Of a stretch of DNA of 21,170 nt, positions 1,653 through 8,019 are shown in pieces. Below the pieces are notes generated by a model. The model saw only the letters and a list, made by a program, of their open reading frames with translations. It was not told where the DNA came from and did not search any database. The stretch's first letter is position 1; each line of letters begins with the position of its first letter. This DNA comes from a virus, in the IMG/VR virus record IMGVR_UViG_3300027759_000501, positions 1-21,170 of that record. The stretch is one strand, 5' to 3'. The position numbers were made by a program, and so were the translations under genes.

Positions 1653-1853
1653 TTAGTAGACCAAGAAGGATGGGTCGGCGGGTGGCAGCGTTGCATGCAG
1701 CGCCTCGATGACATCCTCGTAGACGAATCGAATGAAACGCTTAGTGTGGATCTTCGCTGGGATCCGACCGGCGCGGTGCCATCTCAGCACCACCGCCGTG
1801 TTCATCCCTAACAACTCGGCAAGTTGAGCGGCGGTCAGCAGTTTCATGCTCAT
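1653..1853 (-). CDS. Small helix-turn-helix DNA-binding protein (excisionase-like)
   Basis: A 66-residue protein with a winged-helix/MerR-type N-terminal helix-turn-helix. The segment LLTAAQLAELLGMNTAVVLRWHRAGRIPA (about residues 5-33) matches the AlpA/Xis HTH_17 pattern of two helices, an R-W-H turn and a G-x-I-P-A wing, followed by the RF(I/V)R strand. Proteins of this type act as excisionases or small transcription regulators. Its place in the early operon near attP and the integrase makes excisionase plausible, but that is inference. Start chosen at 1853, where ATG overlaps the stop of the 26-residue ORF (ATGA); an ATG two codons later (1847) also fits. The longer reading to 1967 is discarded. 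Confidence 0.8.
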   Translation of the reverse strand: MSMKLLTAAQLAELLGMNTAVVLRWHRAGRIPAKIHTKRFIRFVYEDVIEALHATLPPADPSFLVY

Positions 1854-2253: not shown

Positions 2254-2442
2254 ATGAAAAGAAACAAAGCACGCGCCGCAGATAAGACAACTCTTGGAGT
2301 ATCAATGCCTAAGACTTTAAAATGCAAGATCTCAGAGGCCGCCGAGGCTGATCGTCGCAACATGGCATCATGGTGCTGCATTCAGTTGGAAAAAGCACTC
2401 AAAGAACTCGGGTTCATCGACAGCAAACCAGACAAAAAATAA
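2254..2442 (+). CDS. Second ribbon-helix-helix protein, divergent
   Basis: A 62-residue basic protein. TLGVSMPKTLKCKISEAA (about residues 12-29) forms the RHH strand and turn, and DRRNMASWCCIQLEKALKEL (about 32-51) the second helix. The ATG at 2254 is preferred over the GTG at 2230 because the extra residues lie in the AT-rich control region. A four-codon ORF (2243) ends overlapping this ATG as ATGA. The gene points toward the attachment site, with a 10-bp-armed inverted repeat immediately after its stop. It is probably a regulator (Arc-like) acting on the divergent early promoter; no partner or target is shown by sequence alone. Confidence 0.68.
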   Translation: MKRNKARAADKTTLGVSMPKTLKCKISEAAEADRRNMASWCCIQLEKALKELGFIDSKPDKK

Positions 2443-2445
2443 TAT

Positions 2446-2480
2446 TTTAGTGGCAACTATTTGGCAACTTTGCCACTAAA
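2446..2480 (+). repeat. P-arm repeats of the attachment site (also a 10-bp stem)
   Basis: Two direct copies of TGGCAACT (2451-2458 and 2462-2469) are followed by the inverted copy TTGCCA (2470-2475). The outer copies form a perfect 10-bp inverted repeat, 2446-2455 with 2471-2480, around a 15-base loop. The same TGGCAA word recurs as a tandem array on the other side of the tRNA fragment, so these are best read as arm-type integrase sites. As a terminator for the RHH gene the stem lacks a T-run and has a long loop. Confidence 0.6.
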
Positions 2481-2519
2481 TCAGAAACTTCCTAGTGTTC
2501 ATATAGGGTCGGTTAATTC

Positions 2520-2564
2520 TTCGTAATGAATAGGTCGTCGGTTCAATTCCGACCAGCGGCTCCA
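2520..2564 (+). other. attP core: 3' half of tRNA-Thr(CGT)
   Basis: From the anticodon loop (T-CGT-AA, 2521-2526) onward the bases match a tRNA: anticodon 3' stem TGAAT, variable region, T-arm with stem GTCGG/CCGAC around the loop TTCAATT (2537-2553), acceptor 3' strand CAGCGGC, discriminator T, and CCA (2562-2564). The 5' half is absent: no D-arm or matching GCCGCTG acceptor strand precedes it, and the anticodon 5' stem no longer pairs. A phage copy of the 3' end of a tRNA gene is the usual attP core for tRNA-targeting tyrosine integrases, because it restores the tRNA on insertion. Phage genes flank both sides, so this is not attL or attR. Confidence 0.8.
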
Positions 2565-2600
2565 AAATTCCTTGTACTTGCTAGGATTTGAAGTTACTCA

Positions 2601-2662
2601 AAAGCACTCGAAAGCACTCTTCAAATGGCAATAGTGGCAATTGTGGCAACCAATTCTGGCAC
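2601..2662 (+). repeat. P'-arm tandem repeats before the integrase
   Basis: TGGCAA occurs at 2626-2631, 2635-2640 and 2644-2649, an exact 9-bp period, with a degenerate TGGCAC at 2657-2662. Just before them AAAGCACTC is repeated at 2601-2609 and 2611-2619 (10-bp period). The TGGCAA copies match those left of the tRNA core. Evenly phased arm sites on the integrase side of attP are typical of the heterobivalent integrases. The AAAGCACTC pair may be sites for a second protein (excisionase or host factor), which is inference. Confidence 0.6.
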
Positions 2663-2665
2663 CAA

Positions 2666-3712
2666 ATGGGTAGGTTAAATACATTCAAACCGACGCTCAC
2701 CGAAGGAGGTTGGATGGTATCGATCGGGCCATCGATGACGGCATCGGCTAAGCGCGTAAGAAAATTTTTCACCACCGAGTCTGCGGCCAAGAAATTCGCG
2801 GCCGCAGTTAAATCTCAACATGCCGCTGGCATGCGTGGAAGTATGATCCCCGCCGCGCTCGCCATCGATGCGGTTCGCGCTGCGGCGCTGCTGGAAGGCA
2901 CCGGCATCACCATTTTTGAAGCGGCCTCGATGGCGGTGGCGAAGTTTAACTCCTCGAGCGCGGAGTTGTTTTGCGATCGATACCTGCGGACCATGAACGC
3001 GATGGAGAATGCCTGGTCAAATTCCTACCGACTGAGCATGACTGCGATCCCTCGTTGGTTGCCGCCCGAGTTTATGCAGCGTAGGTGCCATGGCATCGAC
3101 CGCGTCGCCATCGAGGCGGCGTTGCGTGTCGTCCAACCGGCGCTGAAACAGTCGTCGCTCGACATGAAATCCACTCGAATTCTGGCGGTGGTGAATTTCC
3201 GACCTCGCCATCGTAAAGCCTCCGCGATCGAGATCCTCAGCGTGGGCCAGTGCGCTCGTCTCCTGCGTGTCTGTGAGTGTGCTGCTGAGCGCCGGGTCGT
3301 TGCGCTGTTGCTCTTTGCCGGAATCCGACCCGACGCGCAGAACGGGGAGATTGGTCGCCTAGAGTGGTCGGCGATCACCGATCAGATTTACATCTCCGCC
3401 GAGATCAGTAAGACCAGCAGCGATCGCTACATCCCGGTGAGCGCCCGACTCGGTCGTCTGCTGCGCGGTCACCCGTTGTCTGGCCCAGTGTGTCCACCGA
3501 ACTGGCGGCGAGCATGGCAGCGCATTCGTCGCGATGCTGGCATCAGTGAAATGCATGATGTGCTGCGTCACACGTTCGCCTCAAACTACCTTGCGGCCCA
3601 CGGCGAGGAAGCCACAAAAAATGTCATGGGTCACACCCAAGGATCGGTGACTCTATTTAGGCACTACCGTCGTGCGATTTTGCCAGCCGACGGCATCAAG
3701 TTTTTTCACTGA
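2666..3712 (+). CDS. int: Tyrosine-family phage integrase
   Basis: A 348-residue tyrosine recombinase that would insert the phage at the tRNA-Thr target. An N-terminal arm-binding segment (GGWMV then KRVRKFFTTESAAKKFA, residues 14-45) is followed by a helical core-binding domain (about 85-185) and the catalytic domain. Visible catalytic residues: Arg221 (AGIRP), Lys249 (SKTSSDRYIPV), Arg301 (DVLRHTFAS), His323 (MGHT) and nucleophile Tyr334 (RHYRR). The box II His three residues before Arg301 is Asp298, with a His directly before it. The TTG start at 2588 is rejected because its extra residues encode the arm-site repeats. An ATG at 2714 with a strong AAGGAGGT three bases ahead is a serious alternative (332 aa), but would drop the conserved GGW segment. 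Its 3' end overlaps the endolysin by 7 bp, convergently. Confidence 0.92.
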   Translation: MGRLNTFKPTLTEGGWMVSIGPSMTASAKRVRKFFTTESAAKKFAAAVKSQHAAGMRGSMIPAALAIDAVRAAALLEGTGITIFEAASMAVAKFNSSSAELFCDRYLRTMNAMENAWSNSYRLSMTAIPRWLPPEFMQRRCHGIDRVAIEAALRVVQPALKQSSLDMKSTRILAVVNFRPRHRKASAIEILSVGQCARLLRVCECAAERRVVALLLFAGIRPDAQNGEIGRLEWSAITDQIYISAEISKTSSDRYIPVSARLGRLLRGHPLSGPVCPPNWRRAWQRIRRDAGISEMHDVLRHTFASNYLAAHGEEATKNVMGHTQGSVTLFRHYRRAILPADGIKFFH

Positions 3713-4281
3713 GTCGCCTGAAAATGCATCGCGTCGTACCCCCATTCGACCGCCGCAGAAATCCACCCTTGGCGGTAGAAGCATTCGATGATCTCAATGG
3801 GCATGTTCGACCTGACCGGCCACGCATCCTTGAATCCGTTGGTGCTGGGTGCCAAGTCGATCGCCGCGCCATACGCGTGAAGTGAGTAGGTGTTGCCGCC
3901 GCGCTTGTTTCTAAAATTGTACACGCCAGCATAGTCCGACGCGATCCGCATGATCGCCATGTTGTCGCCGTGCCGAGATTGGATGTCCTCGAGGACGCGC
4001 ATAAGTGAGTGAGCGCAATCTTCGTGTACCCGGGTCGATAGCACCTGCTTGCCATCGTAAAAAGTCGGATAAGGAAACGTAATTTTGTCCAAAACAGTTT
4101 CGTTACCAGGCGAACCGTAGAATGCTTGGAGCGCCGACTGAGACTGTAGCGGCCATGGCGATGGGTGTGGCATCAGAGCATGCAGGTGAGCGCGACACGC
4201 CGCGATCGACCGCGGTCCCCAGAATCCATCTGGCTCTGCTCCCACGCGCCTCTGTAACGCCATGATCTCGCTATGCACCAT
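3706..4281 (-). CDS. Endolysin: peptidoglycan-binding segment plus M15 peptidase
   Basis: A 191-residue lysis enzyme. Residues 7-30 (ALQRRVGAEPDGFWGPRS and on) look like a trimmed peptidoglycan-binding type 1 repeat. The rest is an M15/VanY-like zinc carboxypeptidase or endopeptidase that would cut peptide cross-links in murein. Zinc ligands are visible as His135 in SLHAYGAAIDL, Asp142, and His186 in GYDAMHF. No signal peptide is present, so release needs the upstream small membrane proteins, consistent with a holin-endolysin cassette. It is the last late gene and its stop overlaps the convergent integrase stop region. The start at 4281 lies two bases after the preceding stop. Confidence 0.88.
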   Translation of the reverse strand: MVHSEIMALQRRVGAEPDGFWGPRSIAACRAHLHALMPHPSPWPLQSQSALQAFYGSPGNETVLDKITFPYPTFYDGKQVLSTRVHEDCAHSLMRVLEDIQSRHGDNMAIMRIASDYAGVYNFRNKRGGNTYSLHAYGAAIDLAPSTNGFKDAWPVRSNMPIEIIECFYRQGWISAAVEWGYDAMHFQATQ

Positions 4282-4283
4282 GA

Positions 4284-4469
4284 CTATTTATTTGCGTGAT
4301 ATTCGACTTGGATCGCGCCTGTCACCGGCTCGTAACGGACGCGGCCGTACTTGTTGAGGAACTCAAATCCGTCTGTTGGAGCGCAGCTTGTGCAGAGCGT
4401 CATCAGCGCGACGATCGCCGCAAGCGCGATGAGGATCCAAATGCCGGGTAGTGCTGAGTCGGCGATCAT
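4284..4469 (-). CDS. Small membrane protein of the lysis cassette (61 aa)
   Basis: One hydrophobic segment (about residues 9-28, LPGIWILIALAAIVALMTL) ends in CTSCAP and is followed by a 30-residue polar tail. The second Cys (LCTSC) could be a weak lipobox, but the N-terminus lacks the usual basic residues, so either a single-span anchor or a lipoprotein is possible. Position between holin-like proteins and the endolysin suggests a spanin-type or accessory lysis role, which is inference. Its ATG overlaps the preceding stop in ATGA. Confidence 0.68.
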   Translation of the reverse strand: MIADSALPGIWILIALAAIVALMTLCTSCAPTDGFEFLNKYGRVRYEPVTGAIQVEYHANK

Positions 4470-4624
4470 TTTGCTTTTACGTTGATGATTCCCATCAGTG
4501 CTAATCCGACGACTAGGATGCTGTTTTGCAACTCCGGATCAAGGTGGATGCCGCATGCCATGGCGATGGCAATGAGACCTTTCCAAGTGGATTCTTCCTT
4601 CAGTTTTTCGATGATTGCGTTCAT
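4466..4624 (-). CDS. Holin-like small protein (52 aa)
   Basis: Starts MNAIIEKLKEES and continues with STWKGLIAIAMACGIHLDPEL, then a hydrophobic segment LVVGLALMGIINV and a basic tail. The layout (short amphipathic start, a TWKGL...PEL segment, then a second hydrophobic segment) is common in phage proteins beside endolysins that are often annotated as holins. The start at 4624 was chosen because it lies two bases after the preceding stop (4627-4629); the longer frame to 4711 has a His/Arg-rich implausible extension. Its TGA overlaps the next ATG (ATGA). Confidence 0.68.
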   Translation of the reverse strand: MNAIIEKLKEESTWKGLIAIAMACGIHLDPELQNSILVVGLALMGIINVKAK

Positions 4625-4626
4625 GG

Positions 4627-4815
4627 TTATTTTAGGTTTTTGGTGATGATTGAGATGGCGGATAAAGTCGAAACGATGATGGCGGTCAACAGCGCGATGG
4701 TCTGCAACCACGGGTTGATCTCAGCCGGGACAATATTGAGAAATAGCCCGGCAATGGGCGCACCGATGCCATAGAGAAATTTGGTTCCGAGGTCAGTTGA
4801 GTCGAATGGATTCAT
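4627..4815 (-). CDS. Two-span membrane protein, probable holin (62 aa)
   Basis: A 62-residue protein with two predicted membrane segments, about residues 14-30 (LYGIGAPIAGLFLNIV) and 37-57 (LQTIALLTAIIVSTLSAISII), separated by a short Pro/Glu/Asn turn and ending in a basic KNLK. This is the topology of small class II holins. Placed directly upstream of another holin-like protein, so one may be holin and the other antiholin; the sequence does not decide which. The ATG overlaps the stop of the FN3-like gene (ATGA). Confidence 0.72.
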   Translation of the reverse strand: MNPFDSTDLGTKFLYGIGAPIAGLFLNIVPAEINPWLQTIALLTAIIVSTLSAISIITKNLK

Positions 4816-5126
4816 TTGGGTGTAGCAGTGGTAGTGCGAACGATTTTTGAGATACGGAATCCTTTTGGGATCGTTGGTGCAGGTGGCACAATGAGCGTAG
4901 CAGACGGTTCGCTCTCCCCTGCAATGTTTACGCCTGTCACGTTCACCGCAGTCCGTGCGTCAGGTATCTGTACGGTTATCTGTGTTTCGGTAGTCGTGCC
5001 TATAGGCGCACCGTTGACGTATAGCGTGTATGAGTCTGCATTGAGCGTAGCGTCCCATGCAAACGTCACTGTTCGCTCGGCTAGTGCTAATGTGGCTAGT
5101 GCTAGTAGTAAAATTAATATATACAT
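4812..5126 (-). CDS. Secreted fibronectin-type-III-like protein (104 aa)
   Basis: Begins with a short signal peptide-like segment (MYILILLLALATLALA, residues 1-16, likely cut before Glu-Arg-Thr). A single beta-sandwich domain follows: VTFAWDATLNADSYTLYVNG, then an ITVQIPDARTAVNVTGVNIAGESEPS pattern typical of FN3 modules. A Pro-rich linker and basic tail end it. The start at 5126 is preferred to 5162, since it begins one base after the fibre stop and gives a clean signal sequence. The role may be surface decoration or a periplasmic lysis accessory; it sits between fibre and holin genes. Confidence 0.72.
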   Translation of the reverse strand: MYILILLLALATLALAERTVTFAWDATLNADSYTLYVNGAPIGTTTETQITVQIPDARTAVNVTGVNIAGESEPSATLIVPPAPTIPKGFRISKIVRTTTATPK

Positions 5127-5127
5127 A

Positions 5128-8019
5128 TTAAAATTTAGAAATAACATGCCAGTTTGTCCCATCGCTTATTATTGTTACAGTCGAATATTGAAGCGATAAT
5201 ACATATGTTATAGCTCCATCAATTGTTTCTGAATTTAATGGGTCTATTGTAACGGTATTGGCAGAATTATCTGTCTTTTTAAAAATATGAATCCGACCTG
5301 GGGTGTCATTTGCTGAATGACTAAGATTTGCAATAATAGCACCAGATGTTGCATTGCAAAGAATTGTTGTATCACCACGATAAACATACGCGTTTGCGGT
5401 TGTTGTTGCGTTTTTAAATGCGTTAACGCCAAATCCACCAGTAATGCTTACATACGATAAATTTGATACGCGAAGCAAACCAGTATTATTTGAAGACCCA
5501 AATTGTAATTCTGATGAGGCATTTGCATAACTGCTATTTCTTGTGTTTATTCTTGCAGCACTTGTAAAAGCTAATGGTGATGATTGATTCCAAAAAACCA
5601 TTCCTTGATCAGAACCATCTTTAATATGTAATGATCTTGGCACAAGTAGGCTTTTACTTGAGGGTATGTTTTGTTCTGGGCCTGCTAGCACAAGTGGTAA
5701 ATCCAAACTAGTACCTGATATACCTAATGGAAATTGTCCAATCGGAACAGTTGCCCACAAATGCCTAGACCTAAGTGCTTTCCCAGCACTATTTAAATGC
5801 AATGAGTCTTGCATTAGCCCTTTTGCATTAGCTTTTGCCCAACTCCTGAATAAATACCTCGCATCAAAAAATGTTTGATCTTTTTCTAATGCAAAATCAG
5901 TCATGGCTTGGCATTGCAAATCAACCGTTGCTTCACTTACGACTCCGGGCTGAGTAAAATCAACATAATGCGGCCCAACCATGATCCAATCTGTATTGGC
6001 AAATCCTGATGCTTTTGATTGATCGTAGATAGCCCTGAATCCCCCACCAGCGTCCCACTCTGTACGCCCAGTTTCCAAAAATGAACATTGCATTACATCT
6101 GGTGCTAGTCCTGACCAAATTGGATTGAATATATCATTTGGAATATTTATTTCACTTGGCGAGAATCCAGAAGGAGCCTCAAACGGTACATATATTACAC
6201 CTCCACCAAGAGAATTGTAAATGCCAGCAGTTACAATTTCTAATGCAGTTCCAGAAACAGTAATTCGAATTTTAAATGCCGGGGTATTACTAGTCGGCAA
6301 AGTGTATTCATTATAAACTCCAATTTGGGTTGCGTTTTGTGTACTTACAGAAGTACCAGAGGTCACAGCAGTCCAAGTTCCAACATTTAAACTTGATTCA
6401 TATTCAAGCGAATATGTCCCTGCAGTTGTGTTTGTAATAAATGCTATGGCAAATTTATTACCATAGCGGTGTGTTGTAACACCATTTAAATAGAACTGAT
6501 AAGGTGTTGCACTTACAGGTGCTGTAGCAGTCGTTTTATTGATCCATTTTGTAGTTGCTGTACCACTAGTGGTTACCGAACCACCAAATGGCATTAATCC
6601 AAATGTTCCAGATGGCGCGCCGTTAGCGATTTTTGGTTCTCCAGTAATAAAACTATCACCCCAAGTCATTATTCTGATTGGCGCACTAACTGATCCACTG
6701 TCAAAGGCTGATAGTCTTTTTGCAACATAAGGCTGAGAATTGATGCGATGCCCAAATGTTTGAGGCATTTCTAAATTCAAACTTCTTAGCGTAGCATTGA
6801 AATCTGTAGAAATAGCGGTATTTACCTGTGCATTGGTAGGTGCAGCACCTGCTACAACCTGCCATGTTGCCGCACCACTAGCATCGGTTGCTGTCAATAC
6901 TCGGCCTGTTACCGGAGTGTCGGTATACACAGGCAGCTTGCCAGTAGCATTTGGCAGAGTAATCGTTTTTGCAGATGTGGTAGCAGATTGGACGAGTGAT
7001 GTCCTGTTGTTTACCGATGAAACTCCACTCCCCCATGTCAGAGTGTTCCCGATAAATCTCGTCGTTGTCGTTGGTGATTCATTGCTAGCACCATCAAAAC
7101 CAATAACCGTAGAAGATGCCCCGTCTGAAGTACCTCCGATTGCTATCTGGCAACTCAATGTCCCATTTACTGCTCCGCGATTAATAAAAACATTGTCATT
7201 ACCAGTAGTTATTCCACCGCCAGCCCCATTACCCATTGCTGTATTTCTTACACCAGTAGTTAGTTCTGCCAGTGTATTATTACCAATGCCTAAATTGGCT
7301 GATCCAGTGGTCAACGAGTAAAGCGAGTAAGAACCACAAGCCACATTTCGATCGCCTGTTGTTATTGCTGAAAAATTGCCAGCACCAACAGAAACATTTA
7401 AAAATCCAGAAAATCCAACTGCAGAAAATGCCAATCCACCACTTGATCCCCCAACAGCAACATTGTTGTTTGGCGCTGAACCTGTCGTTGCATCCATGTA
7501 AATGCGACCACCACCAACGGTTAGTTTCCCATTATTGCCTGTGCCTGTGAAGATCAAGCCGCTGTCTGCTCCGAGCGCACCGGCATTGTTGATCTGCACC
7601 GAGCCGGTTGTGCCTGCTGGGGTGGCGGCATTGCCTGCTGCTGGATCCACCGTGTAGATTGGCACTGACGCAGTCGTTTGCCTGGTAATGTCGCGCACCA
7701 GGGTGAGCGTGCCTTTTGCAGCGGTGATCACTGCGGCCGTGCTGTTGTGCTGCGCTTGTATGTCCCAGTACAGCACCGGCTCGTCCTCGGTGGTCGTGTC
7801 GGTATACAGCACCGTGACGATCGCGTTGGTCGTGCTGGTGGTGATAGTACCTGTAGCTGACGATTTCTGGAAAACCGCAGCGGTGTCAGGATCTTTACTG
7901 GATCGTTTTGCTGTAAAAATTAACGAGTACGATCCACCTGGTGTAAATGCCGCAGCACCGTTGGTGAGCGGTATGGTGAAACTCATTGAGTCGCCCCTGT
8001 ATGCAGTGAGTTCGATCAT
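5128..8019 (-). CDS. Tail fibre / receptor-binding protein with SGNH esterase domain
   Basis: 963 residues, the largest gene in the window. Residues 1-115 are a BppU-like N-terminal attachment domain. Residues 180-290 carry YadA-head-like repeats (TTGDRNVACGSYSLYSLTTG, then GSANLGIGNNTL) that build trimeric shafts. An SGNH/GDSL hydrolase follows, with block I GDS at 454-456 (Ser456) and block V DSLH (Asp738, His741). A beta-rich insert (about 505-600) inside it resembles a carbohydrate-binding jelly roll. The C-terminal 80 residues (GDTTILCNATSG to ISDGTNWHVI) form a recurrent fibre tip domain. Probably removes acetyl or other esters from a surface polysaccharide during adsorption (inference). 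The DNA changes from GC-rich (first ~165 codons) to AT-rich, suggesting a swapped distal part. Confidence 0.88.
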   Translation of the reverse strand: MIELTAYRGDSMSFTIPLTNGAAAFTPGGSYSLIFTAKRSSKDPDTAAVFQKSSATGTITTSTTNAIVTVLYTDTTTEDEPVLYWDIQAQHNSTAAVITAAKGTLTLVRDITRQTTASVPIYTVDPAAGNAATPAGTTGSVQINNAGALGADSGLIFTGTGNNGKLTVGGGRIYMDATTGSAPNNNVAVGGSSGGLAFSAVGFSGFLNVSVGAGNFSAITTGDRNVACGSYSLYSLTTGSANLGIGNNTLAELTTGVRNTAMGNGAGGGITTGNDNVFINRGAVNGTLSCQIAIGGTSDGASSTVIGFDGASNESPTTTTRFIGNTLTWGSGVSSVNNRTSLVQSATTSAKTITLPNATGKLPVYTDTPVTGRVLTATDASGAATWQVVAGAAPTNAQVNTAISTDFNATLRSLNLEMPQTFGHRINSQPYVAKRLSAFDSGSVSAPIRIMTWGDSFITGEPKIANGAPSGTFGLMPFGGSVTTSGTATTKWINKTTATAPVSATPYQFYLNGVTTHRYGNKFAIAFITNTTAGTYSLEYESSLNVGTWTAVTSGTSVSTQNATQIGVYNEYTLPTSNTPAFKIRITVSGTALEIVTAGIYNSLGGGVIYVPFEAPSGFSPSEINIPNDIFNPIWSGLAPDVMQCSFLETGRTEWDAGGGFRAIYDQSKASGFANTDWIMVGPHYVDFTQPGVVSEATVDLQCQAMTDFALEKDQTFFDARYLFRSWAKANAKGLMQDSLHLNSAGKALRSRHLWATVPIGQFPLGISGTSLDLPLVLAGPEQNIPSSKSLLVPRSLHIKDGSDQGMVFWNQSSPLAFTSAARINTRNSSYANASSELQFGSSNNTGLLRVSNLSYVSITGGFGVNAFKNATTTANAYVYRGDTTILCNATSGAIIANLSHSANDTPGRIHIFKKTDNSANTVTIDPLNSETIDGAITYVLSLQYSTVTIISDGTNWHVISKF

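Follow-up and report, generated by a model that had tools for sequence, protein, structure and literature searches.

The attP of mycobacteriophage Pixie (subcluster K3) has a 47-bp core that matches a tRNA gene and lies 5′ of a tyrosine integrase gene, and its arms consist of a direct pair and one inverted site on the left and three sites on the right (PMC3203893). The relatives of Pixie have integrases with the same core and different arm sequences, and, in the K1 phages only, differences in the arms were associated with residues 17 and 19 of Int (PMC3203893). We analyzed a 21,170-bp linear virus record without end repeats (the window) in which, as in Pixie, a tRNA core precedes the integrase gene (int) and is flanked by a direct pair plus an inverted site on the left and three sites on the right, whereas the host phylum, the tRNA (Lys in Pixie) and the arm sequence are different. 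Because Pixie is arranged almost identically, the window attP is, judged by this analogy, a known arrangement in a new host group.

Other described systems share parts of this picture. Lambda has a heterobivalent integrase whose N-terminal domain binds the arms, arm sites on both sides of the core and a 7-bp overlap; the window resembles it in its two-sided arms, in the predicted N-terminal domain of Int and in a probable 7-bp overlap, but its target is a tRNA gene, its core is 45 bp, and no IHF or Xis sites were identified in it; moreover, the first His of HxxR, usual in lambda-type enzymes, is Asp in the window Int. Class A integrases centred on the anticodon of tRNA genes (Islander, PMC4383910; Williams 2002) cross over in the anticodon loop, as proposed for the window, the element restoring the 3′ half, and nothing of substance separates the window from them; the combination of target and host, tRNA-Thr(CGT) of Verrucomicrobiota, is new. 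The only matches in a phage database search with Int were those of Chantilly and Chambord, Akkermansia phages of the same host family, which also have tyrosine integrases but are distant (28-33% identity over half of Int) and belong to another integrase lineage.

Taken together, the data below indicate that 2446-2665 is very probably an attP in its complete form, belonging to a tailed, temperate phage whose hosts are Verrucomicrobiota of the Akkermansiaceae type, with arms bound by Int, strand exchange in the anticodon loop and the window DNA in an unintegrated state. We infer Int binding to the arms, the exact cut points and the free state of the window.

The tRNA core and the probable crossover point

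The original prediction had taken the core for the 3′ half of a tRNA-Thr without its 5′ half, and this was borne out. The core matches the host tRNA-Thr(CGT) sequence GCCGCTGTAGCTCAGGGGTAGAGCAATTCATTCGTAATGAATAGGTCGTCGGTTCAATTCCGACCAGCGGCTCCA at every position (Table 1), the identity reaches back to 2520, where the anticodon loop begins, and no further, and ARAGORN found no complete tRNA in the 21,170-bp window. A complete tRNA-Thr(CGT) with the same 3′ end, which it was proposed to seek in candidate hosts, was found in Verrucomicrobiota genomes only: the 3′-half pattern matched 30 stretches among 84,980 species genomes, all of them titled Akkermansiaceae, Akkermansia, Roseibacillus or other Verrucomicrobia.

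Table 1. Positions of features in the window, and arm motifs of the window and its relatives
Feature	Position	Strand	Remark
Candidate excisionase/regulator	1653..1850	−	HTH_17; PHROG excisionase-like
Left arm-type site 1, TGGCAA	2451..2456	+	left pair, 11-bp step, conserved in family
Left arm-type site 2, TGGCAA	2462..2467	+	
Inverted TGGCAA	2470..2475	−	clade-specific
attP core, tRNA-Thr(CGT) positions 32-76 with CCA	2520..2564	+	45/45 identity to host genes
Probable 7-bp overlap (strand-exchange) region TTCGTAA, anticodon loop positions 32-38	2520..2526	+	inferred
T arm of tRNA half, stem 2537-2541 with 2549-2553	2537..2553	+	covaries across phage-borne cores
AAAGCACTC repeat, 10-bp step	2601..2619	+	between core and right arm
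Right arm-type site 1, TGGCAA	2626..2631	+	
Right arm-type site 2, TGGCAA	2635..2640	+	
Right arm-type site 3, TGGCAA	2644..2649	+	
Possible degenerate right arm site TGGCAC	2657..2662	+	one mismatch
int, lambda-type tyrosine integrase, 348 aa	2666..3712	+	predicted N-terminal arm-binding sheet (residues 10-35), F34
Arm motif TGGCAA			window clade, L090, L095, L103
Arm motif GGCGAT			L005, L007, L008, L010
Arm motif GGCAAT			L009
Arm motif GGGCAG			L098-L100, L106, L059
Arm motif CGGCAG			L102
Arm motif GGTCC-like			L091-L094, L101, L105, L107

Across 11 distinct cores, including the attL of genome G272, all cells of the T stem (100%) were paired and four of its five pairs had changed on both sides, a covariation score that was reached by none of 500 shuffles. 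This pattern implies that the phage-borne 3′ half probably works as a tRNA in lysogens. Since the T-stem changes may come from the hosts, the covariation shows that functional tRNA halves are kept, and not where they originated.

In genome G373, 39 bp of the tRNA 5′ half, ending in TTCGTAATG, are repeated on the two sides of a distant relative, and this 9-bp stretch is the intersection of the two cores, that of the window and the 5′-half core of the relative. If the window clade and the G373 relative share the crossover point, the exchange would take place inside TTCGTAATG. An overlap and core-site geometry usual for tRNA targets has been described (PMC8371274, PMC4383910), and by analogy the stem-flanked 7-bp loop TTCGTAA appears to fit it. 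In the laboratory strain Roseibacillus persicicus KCTC 12988, the tRNA-Thr core departs from this overlap by a single base (CTCGTAA). The 39-bp 5′-half core is itself a rare type of tRNA insertion; on contig C36 of G373, a related integrase follows the tRNA-Thr(CGT) 5′ half at ~47,733 (L063), and a complete tRNA copy lies 8.3 kb downstream of it, at 56,087 (L074).

Arm-type sites and the integrase

All six exact TGGCAA copies around the core were found where they had been claimed, with an 11-bp step on the left and two 9-bp steps on the right; the right-hand steps were predicted to stand just before int, and by measurement the last exact copy ends 17 bp before the likely start codon, ATG 2666. 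The interval 2443-2665 is intergenic, except for a 5′ extension of the int reading frame. The inverted copy forms, with left site 1, an 11-bp perfect inverted repeat (2446-2456/2470-2480) in which no rho-independent terminator was found (2446-2480). Besides the window clade, only L095 has an inverted copy (as GCCACC), which is thus not general in the family.

The expectation of about 0.1 copies that accompanied the prediction was too low, although its conclusion still stands. Dinucleotide shuffles gave ~0.25 expected copies in the 223 bp of 2443-2665, and at least four copies appeared in none of 5,000 such shuffles. At least six copies of any hexamer were reached in 80 of 20,000 shuffles of the same 223 bp, mostly by low-complexity words, as judged by inspecting the method and not by a test. 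Over the whole window (1-21170), TGGCAA is 2.5-fold over-represented, with 37 copies seen and 14.5 expected (31 without the attP copies). Conservation of the layout among relatives is stronger evidence than the copy counts.

Two integrase searches of IMG/VR yielded 23 other viral loci with upstream DNA, whose Int proteins are 42-98% identical to that of the window. All 23 have the tRNA-Thr(CGT) 3′ half from TTCGTAATG without a 5′ half, and int lies 76-117 bp downstream of the core. The left repeat arrays usually have steps of 10-11 bp, and the right arrays, beside int, usually 9 bp and in some cases 11 bp. The attP form was thus present in 24 of 24 viral records, and attL in none; one phage-like MAG contig (G284 C38) also had the attP form. 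No more relatives of two distant integrases were found in viral contigs.

The arm motif varies among these relatives (Table 1). The right-arm hexamers are conserved within the window clade, where the spacer bases vary. Across 12 lineages, the left and right arms shared 4.58 7-mers when taken from the same phage and 1.07 when taken from different phages, a within-phage excess that was equalled by none of 50,000 permutations (P = 4e-5 for 6-mers; overall P ≤ 2e-4), whereas control segments next to the core showed no within-phage excess (P ~0.3). Arm-type sites that a single integrase reads should change jointly on the left and right in this way, and the original reading of TGGCAA as an arm site holds on this ground and on that of the layout kept in relatives.

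A second phased repeat, with steps of ~10 bp, lies between the core and the right arm (window 2593-2619) and in the same interval in L003-L010 and L062; the window clade has the words TTACTC/GCACTC there, and the GGCGAT clade TTTACT/TTTACC. Such repeats might serve Xis or a bending protein. A left copy of AAAGCACTC (2392-2409) was considered as a second arm repeat and rejected, being inside an ORF and absent from L006.

The window Int matches PF00589 and the PHROG integrase family, and R221, K249, R301, H323 and Y334 are invariant in sets of 12 and 17 aligned members. Residue 298 (~3557-3559), at the histidine position of HxxR, is Asp (DVLRH), invariant in the aligned family. Over residues 1-336, the structure model (pLDDT 78.6, pTM 0.49) matches full-length lambda Int (Z 11.9), and it also aligns with the catalytic domains of P2 and HP1 integrases. 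The predicted N-terminus is beta-beta-beta-alpha (strands 10-12, 15-20 and 31-35, helix 38-54); only the rows of full-length lambda Int align across this sheet, with few structural matches and a model of modest confidence. The structural alignment probes this region poorly, and the absence of the sheet from the other rows carries no weight.

We compared the Int residues with the arm motifs, which were called by a fixed rule, except that L061, with one site only, was labelled by eye; L063 and L064 (uncallable) were left out, as were L067 and L068, which were unlabelled. Residue 34 was Phe in 10 of 10 integrases with GGCA arms and Tyr in 8 of 8 with other arms, and it was the only Int column that separated the motif classes (18/18). 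It lies in the predicted strand 31-35, and the next-best columns, 19 and 17, lie in strand 15-20; in the K1 phages the residues are 17 and 19, whereas in the window family residue 34 is best and 17 and 19 come next. A tree from which residues 1-60 were excluded requires four or more changes in the state of residue 34, and the sisters L008 (GGCGAT, Tyr) and L009 (GGCAAT, Phe), whose Ints are 85-90% alike, differ in both arm motif and residue 34. The association was first noticed on 26 family members, and L058, L061, L065 and L066, added later, agree with it. Residue 34 tracks the arm motif perfectly in this set, as a correlation. It is possible, though on balance we doubt it, that residue 34 is the main switch of arm specificity, Phe reading GGCA and Tyr reading GGCG/GGYC, with all arms being rewritten in concert and the tRNA-Thr target left unchanged.

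Integrated and free forms

In the mechanism that we propose, the core-binding and catalytic domains of Int would act on the core, and its N-terminal three-stranded-sheet domain would bind the flanking TGGCAA copies, such that Int would bridge arms and core in an intasome. Strands would be exchanged in TTCGTAA of the host tRNA-Thr(CGT) gene. The left junction would then join the host 5′ half to the phage core and so restore a whole tRNA-Thr, with the right arm and int behind it, and the other junction would join the left arm to the displaced host 3′ half. An integrated form would join the window core to GCCGCTGTAGCTCAG or to host genes, and the window DNA is most likely unintegrated (circular or concatemeric).

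An integrated relative in G272, of the GGCGAT clade and with 54% Int identity to the window, shows the predicted attL and attR, and the claim of an intact attP gained support from it as well as from the layout shared by the 23 viral relatives. On contig C115 (attL), a complete tRNA-Thr(CGT) is followed by CGTGATGGGGCGATAAGGGCGAC and then by int; on contig C14 (attR), GGCGAT left arms are followed by the core, a tRNA 3′ half, and the left side is syntenic with phage L007. Such a pair of junctions, with the whole tRNA beside int and the 3′ fragment at the opposite end, is the class A integrated form. The T arms at the two junctions differ by paired changes (TGAG/CTCA vs TCGG/CCGA), as expected if the phage supplied one of the 3′ halves. 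A near-identical lysogen of the window clade was not found; the 28 genomes with the tRNA target and 387 genomes of the order held only relatives with 31-54% Int identity, and a class-level Int search of 384 genomes, which also gave only 31-54%, had no positive control and is therefore uninformative.

Several other integration sites were observed. Int genes follow tRNA-Thr(TGT) in G305 and G346 and tRNA-Asn in G268. On contig C45 of G284, a complete tRNA-Thr(CGT) and a 3′-half fragment (L075/L080, at 4,111 and 9,966) stand 5.9 kb apart, which looks like a small integrated element at a tRNA-Thr(CGT) hotspot. The DNA beyond the attR on G272 C14 (L076), TTAATATCAATGGGTTATGG, resembles the arm that follows tRNA-Thr in L030, L033, L043 and L080, a likeness that suggests tandem elements of another integrase family. 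L058 (G035:C85) combines a distant integrase and GGCGAT-type right arms with a core that resembles the 3′ half of a tRNA-Leu and lies on the other strand from int.

Phage genes had been claimed on both sides of the core, and we confirmed them: to the left of attP lie genes for an exonuclease, a RecT/Bet-like annealing protein and an excisionase-like HTH protein, and to the right those for the integrase and an endolysin, with tape measure, capsid, protease, portal and terminase genes further on. No tRNA 5′ half or host gene was found next to the window core. The closest long relative, G004 (37,949 bp), carries the attP twice, 30,174 bp apart (L056/L057), and was the only one of the other viral records with two copies of the core. 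Its positions 2479-7775 and 32653-37949 are 99.8% identical, a 5.3-kb overlap of the ends. Upstream of this overlap, head and tail are 94-95% identical, with an extra segment of ~1.75 kb (2,479 vs 30,902-32,653). The G004 contig is best read as extending past one full turn of a genome, circular or concatemeric, that varies between strains; two tandem related prophages would also fit. The proposed check for circularity or terminal redundancy thus succeeded in this relative, which wraps a 30.2-kb unit, but not in the window, which has no end repeats. Similarly, the claim of an unintegrated genome was supported for the clade. Because G004 duplicates the attP and no viral record has an attL, the window itself, a linear fragment, is probably free phage DNA as well.

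Alternative explanations and significance

The core might instead be the junction of tandem related prophages in one tRNA gene, in which case the attP sequence would belong to chromosomal DNA. tRNA-Thr(CGT) is indeed an integration hotspot, with attR-like fragments of other elements in MAGs (L019, L024, L026, L075), the G272 DNA beyond attR resembles the arm of a further element, and the ends of the G004 unit are not identical upstream of the overlap. Nonetheless, the last 5 kb of G004 match the first unit, and with the attP form in every one of the 24 viral records and attL in none, tandems in all of them are hard to credit; we consider this explanation improbable. A reading of the core as the remnant of a decayed tRNA, or as the degenerate attR of a defective prophage, would agree with the presence of the tRNA 3′ part only, but it is extremely unlikely given 45 bp at 100% identity, a T stem that compensatory changes have preserved throughout the family, and intact int and structural genes with phage DNA on both sides. 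We also considered tRNA-dependent lysogeny, in which a short core does not rebuild the tRNA and the phage encodes a tRNA of the same isotype (PMC10865867). It was rejected, because the core rebuilds the whole 3′ half and there is no tRNA gene within the 21-kb window, which is part of the genome.

The TGGCAA copies could also be operators or regulatory repeats, through which a repressor or Xis would control int, and not arm sites. In favor of this, 17 bp separate the right array from the start codon of int, the inverted pair at 2446-2480 is operator-like, and arm sites often double as control elements. However, the copies flank the core on both sides at conserved distances, those on the left and right change together across lineages, and the motif varies in step with a residue in the N-terminal domain of Int itself, leaving the operator reading only a slim chance.

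The core places an uncultured phage in the Verrucomicrobiota with certainty, and tRNA-Thr(CGT) is a common insertion gene for these poorly tractable bacteria. The attP-int cassette (2440-3712) is compact and a possible starting point for a site-specific integration vector. Two dozen related attP with concerted arm changes, including those of L008 and L009, constitute a natural experiment on the evolution of arm specificity, and if residue 34 is indeed the switch, phages that share one attB would be unable to use each other's attP.
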